A stretch of 24,283 bases of DNA from the IMG/VR virus record IMGVR_UViG_3300036790_000151, positions 1-24,283 of that record. One strand, written 5' to 3'. Shown here in pieces: positions 849 to 24,141 of the stretch (position 1 is its first letter; the number at the start of each line of letters is the position of its first letter). Below the pieces are notes generated by a model. The model worked only from the letters and a program-made list of their open reading frames with translations, was not told the origin of the DNA and made no database searches. A program made the translations under genes and the position numbers. This DNA comes from a virus.

Positions 849-2839
849 TAGTGATGCACCGCGCCCAAATCCCAAGTCGGCAACCAATTGACGCCTAGGG
901 CATCGGTCTGATTCGGGACGCTCGTACCGCCTGAGTAATTCGCGGTGGGCTTGAAATCCGTCATCAGGTTAAAGCCGCCTGAGCCGTTCTTAAAGCCGGG
1001 GCTCGATGTGTTGCTCGCGTTCGCAGTGTTGTTCGTGACTGTGTTGCCAGTCCCGGTATTGGTCGTCGTGCTGTAGCCGCTTCCCGTCGCGACATACATC
1101 ATGTTGTTTTGAATTATGCTGTTCTGTGCAGGAGTCCAACCACCGGTGGTATCGTTGGCGACGCAGGTATCGAGAGGGTGTCCGGTCGGGGCATAACAGG
1201 TGTTGTTGTAGTACTCCTGCCCGGTGGGCAAGAATCCAGGAACGCTCTCGGTTCCGGTCTGCGCACAATTCGTAGCAGAACCAGAATTATTGCAAGTGCC
1301 TGTCAGAGTGCAGGCTGCACGAGCTCCGGGCTGATACCCCAACTGTACATAGTTACTACCAGAGGTCGCCATGACCATGATGTTGTTGCGGACGGTTATA
1401 TTTTGCCCGCTCGTGAATGAGCCTCTATTGCCGCCAGAACCCGTAGCAGTCAAGCTGATATTGCGTTCCATGATGATGTCGAGATGACGCTCATCTACCC
1501 CTGGATTCTGCGGGGCAACTTCCATCCCTTGAGCAACCGTACCGAAATTGTTATCGCTTAATTCCGCGTACTGGGTGGCTTGTCCCAACCAATTGCCACA
1601 ACTCCCCACCGTGTTAGCTGAGCCGTATTTCAGATTAGAGGCGAGCGATATCGCATCATCGAGGTAATTATTGGTGATTGTGCAATAGCGACAGGTGCCG
1701 ATTCTCACGCCTTCGATATTTCCACCCGTCCCACCGGTCCCCGTCACTTTGTTACCAATGAGAGCGAGATAATTGATATTGATGAAGTTGGGAGTTCCGC
1801 CACAGTTGTAGGCGCTCGAGAAGTTCACACAGTTGTTAGCCTCCGAGTTCAAGAACATGGCGATATTTCCGCCACCGAGCCTTTCGACATATGACCCGTT
1901 GATGATCCCGGTCTGGTTTGCTTGTCCAATCAATACCGTCGATGCGTGCCCATTGGTATTGATGTTGTTAAGCGTCATCTGCGATGAAGGTGTGGGGATT
2001 GACAGCACGTAGGTAAACTGCTGAATCGCGCCTCCCACATTGCCCTCGAAATCAATATCGGTGATGCGGATATTCGTGAGCACCGATGCGGTATTAATGG
2101 TGTAGGTACTGCCGCCAATTGTGTCCGAGAAAACCGGCCGGTTGGTCTTGGTCTCCGCACAGCTTCCCGATTGACCCAAGGGCGGGAATGCTCCAATCGT
2201 CCACCCCGATCCAGAGGGCGCCTCGCTATCGCCCGTGAAGGTCTCACCGCAGCGATACAAGAGGCGCTTATTGGTCAAGTTCCCGTTGACGGCGGCAATC
2301 GTCCCAACGGTCACATGATTCGCACCCGTGGGGCAGCCGGTGAAGGTGCCTGAGCTTGAGTAACAGGTGGTGTTAGCGGCGGTGAATCCATTCGCCCCGA
2401 TGGGGTCGTAAGCCGTGATGGCTACTCCGCAGCTGGCGGTATTCGTGCCGTCGTTCGCCGTGACGACAGCCACCGTGCTCATATTCCCCGCGCCGTCCGC
2501 TACGTCATAAAGATGAGCTTGAACGATACCGGTACCGAGATTCTTGCTCTGATAGGCACTCCCAGAGCCATAGAGCCAATTGCCCTTCCCCGTCACTCCA
2601 GGATCGGAGAAGTTCCAAAGGTACTGAATGTCTTGCGTGACCGTCCCCGCCCCGCCCAATGGATTGGTATCGGTGGTCGTGGTGCAGTCGAAGTTAACGA
2701 GGAGCGGCGCGATACCCGTGGATCGGGGCGTCGAGCAATTGAGGTGAAGGCCGCCAGACACTACGGGGCAGAGCGTCACAGTCGCATGGGCGAAACCCGC
2801 AAAGAGCACCAACAGAATCGCGATTAGCTGACGGTACAT
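848..2839 (-). CDS. Exported PKD-like plus right-handed beta-helix protein
   Basis: A 663-residue protein. Residues 1-19 form a clear Sec signal peptide: a basic start (MYRQ), the hydrophobic core LIAILLVLFAG and an AHA cleavage site. Residues about 35-150 resemble a PKD/Ig-like domain (strand YLWNFSDPG, close to the PKD YxWDFGDG motif). From about residue 230 to the end there are repeated Asn-rich turns (ITNNYLDD, ITVRNNIMV, IIQNNMMY, NTVTNNTAN) and a terminal WDLGAVHH, typical of pectate-lyase-like parallel beta-helices that bind or cleave polysaccharide. No catalytic residues can be assigned. It overlaps the preceding gene by 16 bases and the following gene by one. A cleavable signal peptide on a gene in a virion operon is odd, because virion parts normally stay in the cytoplasm; the protein may instead be displayed or secreted by the host. 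Confidence 0.85.
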   Translation of the reverse strand: MYRQLIAILLVLFAGFAHATVTLCPVVSGGLHLNCSTPRSTGIAPLLVNFDCTTTTDTNPLGGAGTVTQDIQYLWNFSDPGVTGKGNWLYGSGSAYQSKNLGTGIVQAHLYDVADGAGNMSTVAVVTANDGTNTASCGVAITAYDPIGANGFTAANTTCYSSSGTFTGCPTGANHVTVGTIAAVNGNLTNKRLLYRCGETFTGDSEAPSGSGWTIGAFPPLGQSGSCAETKTNRPVFSDTIGGSTYTINTASVLTNIRITDIDFEGNVGGAIQQFTYVLSIPTPSSQMTLNNINTNGHASTVLIGQANQTGIINGSYVERLGGGNIAMFLNSEANNCVNFSSAYNCGGTPNFININYLALIGNKVTGTGGTGGNIEGVRIGTCRYCTITNNYLDDAISLASNLKYGSANTVGSCGNWLGQATQYAELSDNNFGTVAQGMEVAPQNPGVDERHLDIIMERNISLTATGSGGNRGSFTSGQNITVRNNIMVMATSGSNYVQLGYQPGARAACTLTGTCNNSGSATNCAQTGTESVPGFLPTGQEYYNNTCYAPTGHPLDTCVANDTTGGWTPAQNSIIQNNMMYVATGSGYSTTTNTGTGNTVTNNTANASNTSSPGFKNGSGGFNLMTDFKPTANYSGGTSVPNQTDALGVNWLPTWDLGAVHH

Positions 2840-19933: not shown

Positions 19934-20253
19934 TCGATGATCGAAGGCTAGAAAAGGCCCTGACCCGCATCGCTCAGACCGATGAGCGGGTGGCCGAGCT
20001 CCATGCCGAGGTGGAACGTTCCGAATACCGCGCGAAGGCTGTCAAAGATGCCGTGTTCCTTCGAAGCGAAGGATCAGTAGCCGAGCGAAATGCGATTGCC
20101 GGGACCCATCCTGAGTATCAAGCGGCGATGGAAACCTATTTCACCGCCTTGAAAGATCACGAGGCAATGCGAAATGAGCGGGGCAAGGAGATGCTGATTT
20201 GCGATGTGTGGCGCTCGATGTCATCGGCGCGGACAAAGGGGCTGATCCAGTGA
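19927..20253 (+). CDS. 108-residue helical phage protein, unknown
   Basis: ATG 19927 has a GGGGCG/GAGG purine run just upstream. The N-terminal half is coiled-coil (LEKALTRIAQTDERVAELHAEVERSEYRAK) and the C-terminal part is mixed (AAMETYFTALKDHEAMRNERGKEMLICDVWRSMSSARTKGLI). I recall similar proteins beside YbcO-like genes in phages but know no function. Its stop overlaps the GTG of the next gene (GTGA). Confidence 0.75.
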   Translation: MLIDDRRLEKALTRIAQTDERVAELHAEVERSEYRAKAVKDAVFLRSEGSVAERNAIAGTHPEYQAAMETYFTALKDHEAMRNERGKEMLICDVWRSMSSARTKGLIQ

Positions 20254-20540
20254 GTAAGTTGCGCGATGCCGCCCGGGGTCAAGAATGTTGCGTCAGAATT
20301 CCCGGCATCTGCAATTTCAACAAGGAAACGACGGTCCTCGCCCATTACCGGCTTTCTGGGACCTGCGGCACTGGAATGAAGCCGATTGATTTACTCGGCT
20401 CCTGGGCCTGCTCTGACTGCCACGATGCGATCGATGGACGCGGTAAGAGCTCATTCAGCCGGGAAGTTTTGGACCTCATGCATTTGGAGGGGATGTGCCG
20501 AACGATCCAGGCCCTTCACAAGCAGGGCAAACTGAAGTGA
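20250..20540 (+). CDS. YbcO-like (DUF1364) putative nuclease
   Basis: A 96-residue protein starting at GTG 20250 in a GTGA overlap. It matches DUF1364/YbcO of prophage DLP12 nearly end to end: KLRDAARGQECCVRIPGICNFNKETTVLAHYR, TCGTGMKPIDLLGSWACSDCHDAIDGR, and a helical tail EGMCRTIQALHKQGK. The Cys residues (C13, C20, ACSDCHD) and H31 fit a His-Me-finger/HNH zinc nuclease, thought to act on recombination or replication intermediates. It follows the SSB-like gene by two genes, in keeping with a recombination module. Confidence 0.9.
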   Translation: MSKLRDAARGQECCVRIPGICNFNKETTVLAHYRLSGTCGTGMKPIDLLGSWACSDCHDAIDGRGKSSFSREVLDLMHLEGMCRTIQALHKQGKLK

Positions 20541-20558: not shown

Positions 20559-20672
20559 GTGAGCATTCTTAGGGTCATCGCGGGGATGGTTCTGCTCCCG
20601 GTGCTGGTAATTGCAGTGACGATTGCCTACTGGCACGACTATTTCGTGATCATGCGGGGGCTTCGCAAGTGA
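20559..20672 (+). CDS. 37-residue membrane peptide
   Basis: GTG 20559 follows GAGGG at eight bases and the stop overlaps the next ATG (TGATG). The hydrophobic helix VIAGMVLLPVLVIAVTIAYW is flanked by Arg at both ends (SILR and MRGLRK). A single-span peptide with no recognised family; the good ribosome site makes it likely real. Confidence 0.62.
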   Translation: MSILRVIAGMVLLPVLVIAVTIAYWHDYFVIMRGLRK

Positions 20673-21274
20673 TGGTCGCAGTCCTGTTCGTTCGCAAAGA
20701 CTCGATCTACAAGTCGATGCCAGGCGTCGATGCCTGGGATCAGCAACGAGACGCGCGTAACTGGCCCGGCGGCGAACCGATTGTCGCCCATCCACCTTGC
20801 GCCCAATGGTCGGCGCTCTCTCACTTTGCCAACGACATTCCCGAACAAAAAGCCCTGGCGCCACTTGCAGTCAAACTGGTGAGGCGCTGGGGAGGGGTTC
20901 TAGAGCATCCGGCCCATAGCAAGCTTTGGCGGCACGAGGGGCTACCAAAGCCCGGAGGAGGCTCAGATGGCCATGGTTGGACAATGCCCGTGGATCAACG
21001 CTGGTGGGGGCACCGAGCCCGTAAGCGGACGTTCCTGTACATCGTGGGATGCTCGCCAAAAGACATTCCGCCAATGCCGTTCGACATGAGCGAACCCGAA
21101 GTGACGGTGACGACCTCTCGCAAGAAAAACGGCATCCGGCGCGAGATGACTGACCACACGGAACGCGAGAAGACGCCGGCGAGTTTCGCTGCATGGCTCG
21201 TGGAGCTCGCTGGCAAATGCTCATCTCATGCAAAGAATTCGAATGCGGTGCCCCAAAAAGGACTCGATCAATGA
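20672..21274 (+). CDS. C5-methyltransferase-like protein with Pro-Pro-Cys loop, unknown activity
   Basis: A 200-residue protein from ATG 20672 (TGATG). AHPPCAQWSALSHF (about 37-50) resembles the catalytic PPC..S loop of cytosine-5 methyltransferases, and VKLVRRWGGVLEHPAHSKLW resembles the ENV/EHP strand that follows it. VDQRWWGHRARKRTFLYIVG recalls the motif around QxRxR. The SAM-binding FxGxGG motif I and a target-recognition domain are absent, and the protein is far shorter than active enzymes. It may be a reduced relative, perhaps for modified nucleotides. It ends AVPQKGLDQ, the first junction repeat, with an ATGA overlap. Confidence 0.7.
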   Translation: MVAVLFVRKDSIYKSMPGVDAWDQQRDARNWPGGEPIVAHPPCAQWSALSHFANDIPEQKALAPLAVKLVRRWGGVLEHPAHSKLWRHEGLPKPGGGSDGHGWTMPVDQRWWGHRARKRTFLYIVGCSPKDIPPMPFDMSEPEVTVTTSRKKNGIRREMTDHTEREKTPASFAAWLVELAGKCSSHAKNSNAVPQKGLDQ

Positions 21275-21471
21275 AGCTGCACTACTCGCGTGTGGAACTC
21301 AACGCTTGGGGCGGCCACACGACCGGCTCGTGGTGTCGCCGCACGAATGCCCGCTGCACAGACGGCATGAATCTTACGAGTGATCCCAAAACGGTAACGT
21401 GTAAGTTCTGCCTGAAAATCATGGCGCCGCGCGGTAAATCGGTGCCTCCAAAGGGAGTCGATCATGAGTGA
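21271..21471 (+). CDS. 66-residue Cys-containing protein, cassette 1
   Basis: ATG 21271 overlaps the prior stop. The gene starts behind junction-repeat copy 1 and ends in copy 2 (SVPPKGVDHE). The body is MKLHYSRVELNAWGGHTTGSWCRR, then C..C and VTCKFCLKIMAPRG, with CxxC at KFC pairing with earlier Cys as a probable zinc site. This pattern recalls small phage proteins of unknown role that begin with H-S/T-R and end with a CxxC. No function assigned. Confidence 0.75.
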   Translation: MKLHYSRVELNAWGGHTTGSWCRRTNARCTDGMNLTSDPKTVTCKFCLKIMAPRGKSVPPKGVDHE

Positions 21472-21766
21472 CCAGGATACGCGGCTCCTTAGCCAATTGG
21501 GACAGGCGACCCTAAATCGTCCGCGCCCCACTGAATGCCAACAGCGCAGTTCCGGCCCCCACTCGTGGGCATGGGACGAAAGTTCAGAGGTATTCCGCTG
21601 CCTGTATTGCGGGCGCAGGGAGGCAAAAGAGACGCCAGTCGAGTGTGACGATCCGGAATCGGTGCCTCAAAAGGGACACCACTCGCGTTGCCACACGGTG
21701 CAGTACGGTTCCAACGAATCACACTGTGATTGCGGCGCAGTGCCTCAAAGAGGAGACGTAGAGTGA
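21464..21766 (+). CDS. 100-residue zinc-type protein with internal junction repeat
   Basis: ATG 21464 lies within junction copy 2. The N-terminal half has CLYCGRRE (CxxC). The middle carries SVPQKGHHSR, an in-frame copy of the junction repeat, and the C-terminal half adds SRCHTVQYG and HCDCGAVPQRGDVE, closing with copy 4. At least six Cys/His ligands. The internal copy suggests two former cassettes fused after loss of a stop/start. It overlaps the next GTG as GTGA. Confidence 0.75.
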   Translation: MSDQDTRLLSQLGQATLNRPRPTECQQRSSGPHSWAWDESSEVFRCLYCGRREAKETPVECDDPESVPQKGHHSRCHTVQYGSNESHCDCGAVPQRGDVE

Positions 21767-21960
21767 ACATTCAAGCTTGGTTGAAACAGAAACTCGATGT
21801 ATTCGAATTGAGGGTCAAGGCCAGTAAATCAAAGCTGGCTGCGTCGGTGGGTCACGATACTTATTGGTGCGCGGGCTATGCTCAAGGCTACATGGCGGCA
21901 CAACGGGATGCGCGCCGCTCCGCCAGATCGGGTCCCCGAAGAGGACCAGTAAATGAGTGA
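21763..21960 (+). CDS. 65-residue basic protein, cassette gene
   Basis: GTG 21763 overlaps the prior stop (GTGA) and has AGAGGAG from junction copy 4 upstream. The protein is helical and basic: QAWLKQKLDVFELRVKASKSKLAAS, then TYWCAGYAQGYMAAQRDARRSARSG, ending GPRRGPVNE (copy 5). GYxQGYxAA is common in small phage proteins of unknown role. It overlaps the next gene by eight bases. Confidence 0.72.
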   Translation: MNIQAWLKQKLDVFELRVKASKSKLAASVGHDTYWCAGYAQGYMAAQRDARRSARSGPRRGPVNE

Positions 21961-22195
21961 CGTTGTTGGGTATTACACGCCAGATCTGCGCGTGGGGACA
22001 GCCTTCGGAGAGAAGGTCGGCTCCGCATTCGTGGTGCTTGCATCGGACTATCAAAAGCTGGAAGCAGCTGCTAAAGCGGCATTGCATGAGATGTGCCACA
22101 CAATCTCGCCGAGAAATTCGTTTACAGACGCGGTAGACCGGTTAGACGCTGCCCTCAATTCTCGTACTTCGAGTCCCCAAAGGGGCTACGTATGA
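21953..22195 (+). CDS. 80-residue protein, cassette gene
   Basis: ATG 21953 has GAGGA from junction copy 5. The body (VVGYYTPDLRVGTAFG, SAFVVLASDYQKLEAAAKAALHEM, DAVDRLDAAL) is mixed alpha/beta with one helix and ends SSPQRGYV (copy 6). No family recognised. It overlaps the next gene by ATGA. Confidence 0.72.
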   Translation: MSDVVGYYTPDLRVGTAFGEKVGSAFVVLASDYQKLEAAAKAALHEMCHTISPRNSFTDAVDRLDAALNSRTSSPQRGYV

Positions 22196-22467
22196 GCAAG
22201 TGGCAGCCGATTGAGACCGCCCCGAAAGGGGGTACCGATATCGTACCGGTGCTGCTGGCGACATTCGGTAACGAAGAGCGATTCGACGGCATAGCTGTCG
22301 GTTACTTCGACCTTTATTACGCCGAAGGGGGTAGCGGGTACAAAGGCGGCAACGGTTGGGTAATTCTGGAGGGGGAGGAGTACCGGCTTCATTATGCTGG
22401 ACCGACGCACTGGCAGCCGCTGCCCCGCCCGCTAGGTTCGACGCCCAAGAGGGGCGAGCATGAATAA
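22192..22467 (+). CDS. DUF551-like protein
   Basis: A 91-residue protein from ATG 22192, with AAAGGGG from junction copy 6 upstream. WQPIETAPKGGTDIVPVLLA at the N-terminus and GPTHWQPLPRPL near the C-terminus are the paired hallmarks of DUF551-type small phage proteins (W-PIETAPKDG ... HWxPLPxPP). Function is unknown even in the family. It ends STPKRGEHE (copy 7) and overlaps the next start by eight bases. Confidence 0.85.
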   Translation: MSKWQPIETAPKGGTDIVPVLLATFGNEERFDGIAVGYFDLYYAEGGSGYKGGNGWVILEGEEYRLHYAGPTHWQPLPRPLGSTPKRGEHE

Positions 22468-22597
22468 GCGCCTCCAACATGTGGTTACCGCCCTCTCGCC
22501 CGAGAAGCCGCGGTTGCGGTGGAACTGGCGAAATCGCGGCTGGTGGCTCGTACTCGACAGACGCTCTTCTCACATCAAGGAAAAAGAACATGGGTAA
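22460..22597 (+). CDS. 45-residue basic, Trp/Arg-rich peptide
   Basis: ATG 22460 lies in junction copy 7 with AGAGGGG upstream; TAA ends at 22597. It contains RLRWNWRNRGWWLVLDRR, unusually rich in Trp and Arg and resembling membrane- or nucleic-acid-active peptides, and ends SSHIKEKEHG. It overlaps the next ATG by eight bases, the same overlap style as its neighbours, which supports it being translated. Confidence 0.6.
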   Translation: MNKRLQHVVTALSPEKPRLRWNWRNRGWWLVLDRRSSHIKEKEHG

Positions 22598-23700: not shown

Positions 23701-23840
23701 ACTACGTGGTGCGCATCACCGGCCCCGGAATCGACCACCAAGTGATGGTGTCGAGCGCCGAGGACTTCGAGGCGCTGGAGTTGATCATTGCGAAGATGCG
23801 TAAGTACTTCGAAAATCCATCCAAAGCAGGTGACACATGA
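23697..23840 (+). CDS. 47-residue protein, unknown
   Basis: ATG 23697 in an ATGA overlap, with CAGGGG seven bases upstream, and an ATGA overlap at its end. Beta then alpha: MNYVVRITGPGIDHQVMVSS followed by AEDFEALELIIAKMRKYFENP. No family recognised. Confidence 0.62.
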   Translation: MNYVVRITGPGIDHQVMVSSAEDFEALELIIAKMRKYFENPSKAGDT

Positions 23841-24037
23841 TCGAAGTCGCGGACATCAAGCTCGACGTTCTCAAGCTGGCGATGGGCATCAAGTCACTGG
23901 AGGAGCCGGAACTCTATCGCCGCTTGGAAGACTTTTGGTGTGCAGCCTATAAGCGCGGCGCAGAGGATACGCGCGAGCAATTCGTCACAGGCTTAACTGC
24001 CAAATCCACAGAGAATCCATTGGGGAGGGACCCATGA
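23837..24037 (+). CDS. 66-residue protein, unknown
   Basis: ATG 23837 in an ATGA overlap, ending in an ATGA overlap. Helical: IKLDVLKLAMGIKSLEEPELYRRLEDFWCAAYKRGAEDTREQF. YKRGxxDTREQF is a motif seen in other small phage proteins. The C-terminal GLTAKSTENPLGRDP recurs in altered form at the end of the next gene (GFSAKSAAEPT), hinting at local duplication. Confidence 0.65.
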   Translation: MIEVADIKLDVLKLAMGIKSLEEPELYRRLEDFWCAAYKRGAEDTREQFVTGLTAKSTENPLGRDP

Positions 24038-24106
24038 GCTTGTACATGGTGCGTAGTAACGCACGTGGGGCCTTGATAGCGTTACCTGAGGGCCCCCTCT
24101 CCAATG
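24018..24106. repeat. Inverted repeat around a ribosome site
   Basis: CCATTGGGGAGGG (24018-24030) and CCCTCTCCAATGG (24094-24106) are inverted with one mismatch in 13. The left arm contains the GGGGAGGG ribosome site of the 35-residue gene whose body lies between the arms. Inside there is also GTGCGT-agta-ACGCAC (24049-24064). Confidence 0.5.
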
Positions 24107-24141
24107 GGTTTTCTGCCAAATCCGCCGCGGAGCCGACATGA
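24034..24141 (+). CDS. 35-residue peptide, unknown
   Basis: ATG 24034 overlaps the previous stop and TGA 24141 overlaps the next ATG (both ATGA). GGGGAGGG lies five bases upstream but can pair with a downstream arm, so translation may depend on ribosomes arriving from the previous gene. Sequence MSLYMVRSNARGALIALPEG then a Ser/Ala tail; no recognised family. Confidence 0.5.
   Translation: MSLYMVRSNARGALIALPEGPLSNGFSAKSAAEPT

Follow-up and report, generated by a model that had tools for sequence, protein, structure and literature searches.

A repeated in-frame sequence at the ends of small early phage genes, a likely joint for the exchange of accessory-gene cassettes

Six consecutive genes in the early region of a phage genome fragment each terminate in one copy of the same degenerate repeat of about 26 bases, and this train is likely to be an array of accessory-gene cassettes in which recombination between copies inserts, deletes or replaces genes. 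The window, i.e., the whole stretch of DNA that was analysed, is a linear IMG/VR virus record of 24,283 bases, which has its structural genes on the minus strand and its early region, containing a YbcO/DUF1364 nuclease gene, on the plus strand. The repeat (consensus AAATCGGTGCCTCAAAAGGGAGTCGATCATG, or (AAA)TCGGTGCCYCAAARRGGA(G/C)TCGAT.ATG when built from 21 copies) reads S-V-P-Q-K/R-G in the frame of the upstream gene and contains the purine-rich Shine-Dalgarno sequence of the next gene, whose start most copies overlap as ATGA or GTGA. All the gene-terminal copies lie on the plus strand, and the upstream gene reads each of them in the same frame (Table 1). The initial annotation had described such a train of six genes, with a shared in-frame VPQKG-like tail joined to the next Shine-Dalgarno sequence and start, and our analysis bore this out at all six gene ends; its inventory of copies has to be corrected, however, since a seventh copy lies inside gene 3 and the last copy is one codon shorter. 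Gene 3 is probably the fusion of a gene with a remnant cassette that lacks a start. In gene 6, the match to PF04448 (E=1.6e-4) pairs positions 38-66 of the 68-position profile with residues 49-80, and the tail occupies residues 81-91.

Table 1. Features of the window and, where a record is named, of other records. Protein ends are given up to the stop codon; aa, amino acids.
Feature	Position	Strand	Remarks
YbcO/DUF1364 nuclease gene	20250-20540	+	early region
Gene train	20669-22467	+	six consecutive genes
Gene 1	20669-21274	+	201 aa; phrog_12600 family (E=4e-68, residues 2-190), distant DNA methyltransferase similarity; appended tail NAVPQKGLDQ from copy 1
Copy 1	21242-21273	+	AATGCGGTGCCCCAAAAAGGACTCGATCAATG; gene 1 frame; ATGA overlap, gene 2 start at 21271
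Gene 2	21271-21471	+	66 aa; orphan, no family match; end KSVPPKGVDHE
Copy 2	21436-21466	+	gene 2 frame; gene 3 ATG at 21464
Gene 3	21464-21766	+	100 aa; one internal copy; end GAVPQRGDVE
Copy 3	21656-21681	+	SVPQKGHH...; within gene 3, no start codon after it; 78 bp (26 codons) before copy 4
Copy 4	21734-21765	+	gene 3 end; gene 4 GTG at 21763, GTGA overlap
Gene 4	21763-21960	+	65 aa; orphan; end RSGPRRGPVNE
Copy 5	21925-21955	+	gene 4 end; gene 5 ATG at 21953
Gene 5	21953-22195	+	80 aa; orphan; end TSSPQRGYV
Copy 6	22166-22194	+	gene 5 end; gene 6 ATG at 22192
Gene 6	22192-22467	+	91 aa; DUF551-like; tail LGSTPKRGEHE after the domain
Copy 7	22435-22462	+	GGTTCGACGCCCAAGAGGGGCGAGCATG; gene 6 end; gene 7 ATG at 22460
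Gene 7	22460-22597	+	45 aa; start given by copy 7; own end without repeat, so that the train stops
Second repeat	23990-24018 and 24106-24134		two copies, 72% identical
Inverted repeat	24018-24103		around a 35-codon ORF
Serine recombinase gene	L013:3619-4515		Resolvase and Recombinase domains
Gene with 18-bp tandem repeats	L013:6815-7420		beside the cassette train
C5-methyltransferase gene	L028:9291-10001		matches profile positions 1-163 of 324
Gene with 15-bp tandem repeats	L028:10840-11577		beside the cassette train
Direct repeat, 112 bp	L056:1-112 = 2688-2799		exact; at a contig end

The copies stand out from the rest of the window. A scoring matrix was made from the copies of other phages only and run over both strands of the whole window, and its six best matches were copies 1 to 6 (36.7, 33.4, 27.4, 16.3, 13.9 and 13.1 bits); in 60 shuffles of the whole window, the best match averaged 10.2 bits and did not rise above 16.3. 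Three sites are far above chance individually, and the weaker ones rest on position, strand and frame; the shorter copy 7 was identified by eye and frame. The genes between the copies are unrelated, as had been stated from the sequence: in an all-against-all BLASTP comparison of 24 cassette-region proteins, similarity was almost confined to the terminal 8-13 residues. Towards the end of the window, a second, unrelated repeat (GCCAAATCC..C.G.GA.CC) lies at the end of each of two consecutive genes, in one and the same frame, giving the tails LTAKSTENP.. and FSAKSAAEPT (the latter up to its stop codon), and it is possibly another boundary-repeat family. An inverted repeat in the same part of the window, CCATTGGGGAGGGACCC ... 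GGGCCCCCTCTCCAATGGG, is followed by TTTT.

Exact pattern scans of IMG/VR revealed the repeat in four further uncultured phage groups, in which the intervening genes differ and most copies encode a VPQKG-like tail on unrelated proteins. There are six copies in L013 (G001), one in L027 (G002), three each in L028, L029 and L030 (G003/G004/G005) and five in L036/L056 (G006). The tails in these groups include SVPQKGVEE, SSPQKGVDDANS, SVPQREPDES, TVPQRGNE, STPQKGVDHE and SVPKGGVDE, each ending at a stop codon, as well as SMPQKGNE...; a YAcAr/SLOG protein carries the terminal tail SVPQKGIEQS, and a C5-methyltransferase the terminal tail SVPQKGVELGGGGTKI. Thus, the recurrence of the tail on unrelated proteins, which the initial annotation had proposed as a check, was found. 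The loci L031, L033, L034, L035 and L037, together with most loci of the first scan, were set aside as chance by score and context. A scan of bacterial genomes for prophages with the repeat gave 18 matches and no train, 10 of the matches being in tRNA genes and the rest apparently due to chance, and a consensus search of cultured phages and plasmids gave no more than a match of 17 bases in Rhodococcus phage Shagrat and some weak ones in plasmids, which were likewise judged to be chance. The search for close relatives of the window found none: gene 1 led to one distant relative, and the gene at 23837 only to G006.

Remnant or empty cassettes are represented by copies 3-4 of the window, by G001b (which is placed in a frame-shifted remnant), by G006a and G006c, and by a tandem half-copy after G006b, and they suggest that the arrays decay. 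The trains of the other groups have further features in their neighbourhood. L028 and L013 each contain, beside the train, a gene with long tandem in-frame repeats (of 15 bp, pentapeptide-like, and of 18 bp, respectively). The C5-methyltransferase of L028 matches only the first half of its Pfam profile and may be truncated or rearranged, and Pfam did not confirm the DUF551-like appearance of the gene that follows the L028 copy. The direct repeat at the end of the G006 contig L056 adjoins the cassette train and is either an assembly branch or a population variant.

The tail is an add-on, since homologues of two tailed proteins end where it begins: those of gene 1 in the Pseudomonas phages Doze and Meltemi, in Xanthomonas phage fSU1 and in L002 stop at the start of the tail, and the C5-methyltransferase homologue in L071 stops where the repeat-coded tail would begin. 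The gene 1 family is also found more widely; for a single accessory gene, phrog_12600 has a very wide range, which takes in Casadabanvirus-type Pseudomonas phages, a small Xanthomonas phage of 10.9 kb and microvirus records. When codons differing by one base were compared between copies, the synonymous share of the differences was 62% in the tail frame, as against 19% and 25% in the two others, and only 2 of 400 column permutations reached the observed synonymous value. This synonymous variation suggests that the tail peptide may itself be under constraint, although, because the copies are related, it is suggestive of selection on the peptide and not proof of it. It should be noted that 4 of about 25 copies supply no tail to the gene before them (G001a and G006c begin at the stop codon of that gene, G006a starts about 36 bases past a stop, and G001b is the one in the remnant), and tail coding is therefore not strictly required. 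A more far-reaching possibility, which we regard as rather doubtful, is that the repeat is a mobile, selected joint whose C-terminal peptide is functional and which is under simultaneous selection as protein, ribosome site and recombination site, defining an integron-like cassette economy common to unrelated phages. Under that proposal, the peptide might label unrelated small phage proteins with a common tag, or might act in the nascent chain as a signal for termination-reinitiation.

In relatives of another phage, gene content changes inside the repeat, as the cassette reading predicts. L070 and L028 are collinear, with 90.8% identity over 2.6 kb and 98.3% over the last 237 bp, save for one extra 394-bp gene unit in L070 that is bounded by the copies CGCACGGTGCCCCAAAGGGGCGTCGA and TCTTCGAGTACCCAAAGGGGCAACGAG. 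The single copy of L028 is a hybrid, its 5' part being that of the first L070 copy and its 3' part that of the second; the changeover falls within CCAAAGGGGC. In the second case, L029 and L028 match except at 3 of the 1500 positions that precede the repeat; starting at its 3' edge, they are unrelated (identity 30/110), so that the downstream gene of L029 is not that of L028/L030. At a distance of 116 bp, the L029 junction is close to the end of its contig, and repeats are places where the assembly of metagenomes can join sequences, so that a chimeric join is possible in that case; for L070, an assembly chimera would need two internal junctions, and the difference is harder to explain in that way. 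The expectation that different genes would be found between intact copies is therefore upheld by L070/L028 and L029/L028, with the restriction that both pairs come from another repeat-bearing phage group and not from relatives of the window. Both features of a boundary sequence were found: a short sequence conserved at the junctions of unrelated genes, and changes of content exactly there between close relatives. The cassette-swap reading of the initial annotation is supported by these observations, as the gene bodies are not duplicates of one another and the gene content changes.

In the model that we propose, a tailed phage carries the train in its nin-like early region, and each cassette would comprise a small accessory gene and the repeat at its 3' end. 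The repeat would serve at once as an appended C-terminal tail, as the Shine-Dalgarno sequence and overlapping ATGA or GTGA start of the next gene, and as a homology block of about 20-26 bp. The Shine-Dalgarno duplexes predicted at the six starts (-5.3 to -9.1 kcal/mol, with a random mean of -3.3) fit the second of these roles, but they are not stronger than those at the other starts of the phage. Copies may recombine, most likely through RecA-independent annealing by phage recombinases, so that whole genes could be inserted, deleted or replaced while frame, stop and ribosome site are all kept. The phase of the repeat relative to the stop of the upstream gene and the start of the next is the same in all copies, so that a crossover at any point within it would give a full gene end and a working start. 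The model presumes exchange by homologous recombination or annealing, a repeat that drives translation, and selection in favour of exchangeability as opposed to mere tolerance of exchange. Phage Rad52-like recombinases are reported to act on short, diverged homologies (PMC3945230), and so is lambda Red (PMC2327257). An ERF annealing protein is encoded in G006, the sole ERF-positive record; the search for RecT was negative in all records, and no ERF was found in the window, G001, G002 or G003/G005, the window and some of the others being fragments.

The conservation of the repeat might alternatively reflect selection for a strong ribosome-site or coupling motif, with recombination being incidental. 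Most copies have a purine-rich Shine-Dalgarno sequence 5-9 nt ahead of the overlapping start, and the central AAARRGG belongs to the best-conserved stretches. However, conservation (TCGGTGCCYC) reaches well upstream of any Shine-Dalgarno sequence, the two relatives alter their gene content exactly inside the repeat, and other starts of the phage have equally good sites without it. We therefore consider a purely translational role unlikely.

The repeat might also be a regulatory site, with a protein binding to its imperfect inverted repeat or with an RNA hairpin that controls the next gene; such a role has been considered for the extended SAS in cluster K (PMC3203893). The arms TCGRNKCC / GGAGTCGA do pair in 72% of cells, against 24-48% when slid, and the mean folding energy is -5.9 kcal/mol versus -2.9 for shuffled sequences, one copy having a perfect 8-bp stem. 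Against the hairpin, there is no covariation (pairing is 72.0%, and 71.9% with shuffled partners), swapping halves between copies leaves folding no weaker, and RNAalifold returned no consensus structure. The imperfect dyad is present, yet without compensatory base-pair changes or a half-swap effect the RNA hairpin was rejected; a dyad that binds a protein as DNA is conceivable, but a regulatory explanation of the repeat as a whole is quite improbable.

An integron cassette is a gene with a 3' recombination site, lying in an array, and the gene-plus-3'-site units arrayed in the window have the same layout, with the difference that the repeat also supplies the start of the next gene. The repeat could by analogy be the site of a dedicated recombinase that moves the cassettes, integron-like or derived as an att site from the 3' end of a tRNA gene. 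The G001 train is followed directly by a serine recombinase gene, the G002 copy is closely preceded by an integrase-like gene that was recognised by eye, and the consensus approximates a tRNA 3' end in reverse complement (TCGANTCC spaced to the CC of CCA). The ten tRNA genes matched exactly in bacterial genomes are all tRNA-Leu or tRNA-Arg genes (L040, L041, L042, L044, L049, L050, L051, L053, L054 and L055). However, no recombinase was identified in common among the records, the copies are too variable for a strict core, and a search for the integron attC boxes GTTRRRY / RYYYAAC (the R-box motif) showed that, of 25 copies, 1 had the motif within 30 bases. Several copies lack the tRNA-conserved positions, the tRNA-like TCGA is missing in several, and neither the window nor the examined parts of G001 contain a tRNA gene; the tRNA/att origin is kept as a lead only, and a dedicated recombinase is very unlikely to account for the trains. 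Tandem duplication of one gene, with diverged bodies and the tail as a relic, would explain direct repeats spaced at gene size but is, as it stands, refuted by bodies without similarity, which belong to families as different as phrog_12600, DUF551, C5-methyltransferase and YAcAr, and by homologues without the tail.

The cassette array favoured here has precedents. Kroger and Hobom reportedly described the lambda ninR region in 1982 as a "chain of interlinked genes" (cited in PMC7166090). The lambda nin genes have short shared -(E/R)AA-like tails (GDRAA, FGREAA, SRSEAA and QGEGA, each before the stop codon) that contain the next ribosome site, and the window resembles them in its small early-region accessory genes, its ATGA overlaps and its ribosome sites inside the end of the upstream gene; the YbcO/DUF1364 family is likewise present in lambdoid phages. 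In lambda, by contrast, the shared stretch is about 10-15 bp and extends barely past the ribosome site, whereas that of the window covers 20-26 bp and at least 6 codons, is found at six consecutive genes, is common to unrelated phages and has gene gain or loss at its copies. Boundary sequences of lambdoid phages were proposed as sites of homologous recombination (Clark 2001; Susskind and Botstein 1978; both cited in PMC3029335), an old idea that has seldom been seen at actual junctions.

The SAS and ESAS of cluster K mycobacteriophages (PMC3203893) and cluster EF Microbacterium phages (PMC7302621) are also conserved repeats at the ribosome sites of many unrelated early genes, with an imperfect inverted repeat that does not covary. 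Unlike the window repeat, the nearly invariant SAS (consensus GGGATAGGAGCCC) is intergenic or only overlaps a stop, and encodes no shared tail; the sequence in the window differs, and its copies are in the upstream frame. This contrast, which the initial annotation had drawn, holds: 0 of the 16 Adephagia SAS lie inside the upstream coding frame. The T4-type PeSL mobile regulatory cassettes (Arbiol 2010; Comeau 2014; both cited in PMC4503421) are repeated short boundary elements that are said to shuffle small genes and are described as an early promoter with a stem-loop, not as an in-frame ribosome site; at the repeat junctions studied here, no covarying hairpin was observed. The claim that no example had been described was consequently too strong, as the lambda nin tails and the old boundary-sequence proposal came before. 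The principle is already known in weaker form from lambda nin, lambdoid boundary sequences, T4 PeSL and mycobacteriophage SAS; what is new is the conserved in-frame coding tail, its spread over unrelated phages and the visible gain and loss of cassettes.

How phages gain single small genes without broken expression is an old open question, for which homology at gene boundaries has been proposed and has rarely been visible. Here, the joint is a defined sequence present in unrelated phages, and the pairs of relatives with and without a cassette allow its use in recombination to be tested directly. The same add-on tail on many unrelated proteins bears on the annotation of small phage proteins, and provides a handle for searching for accessory genes.
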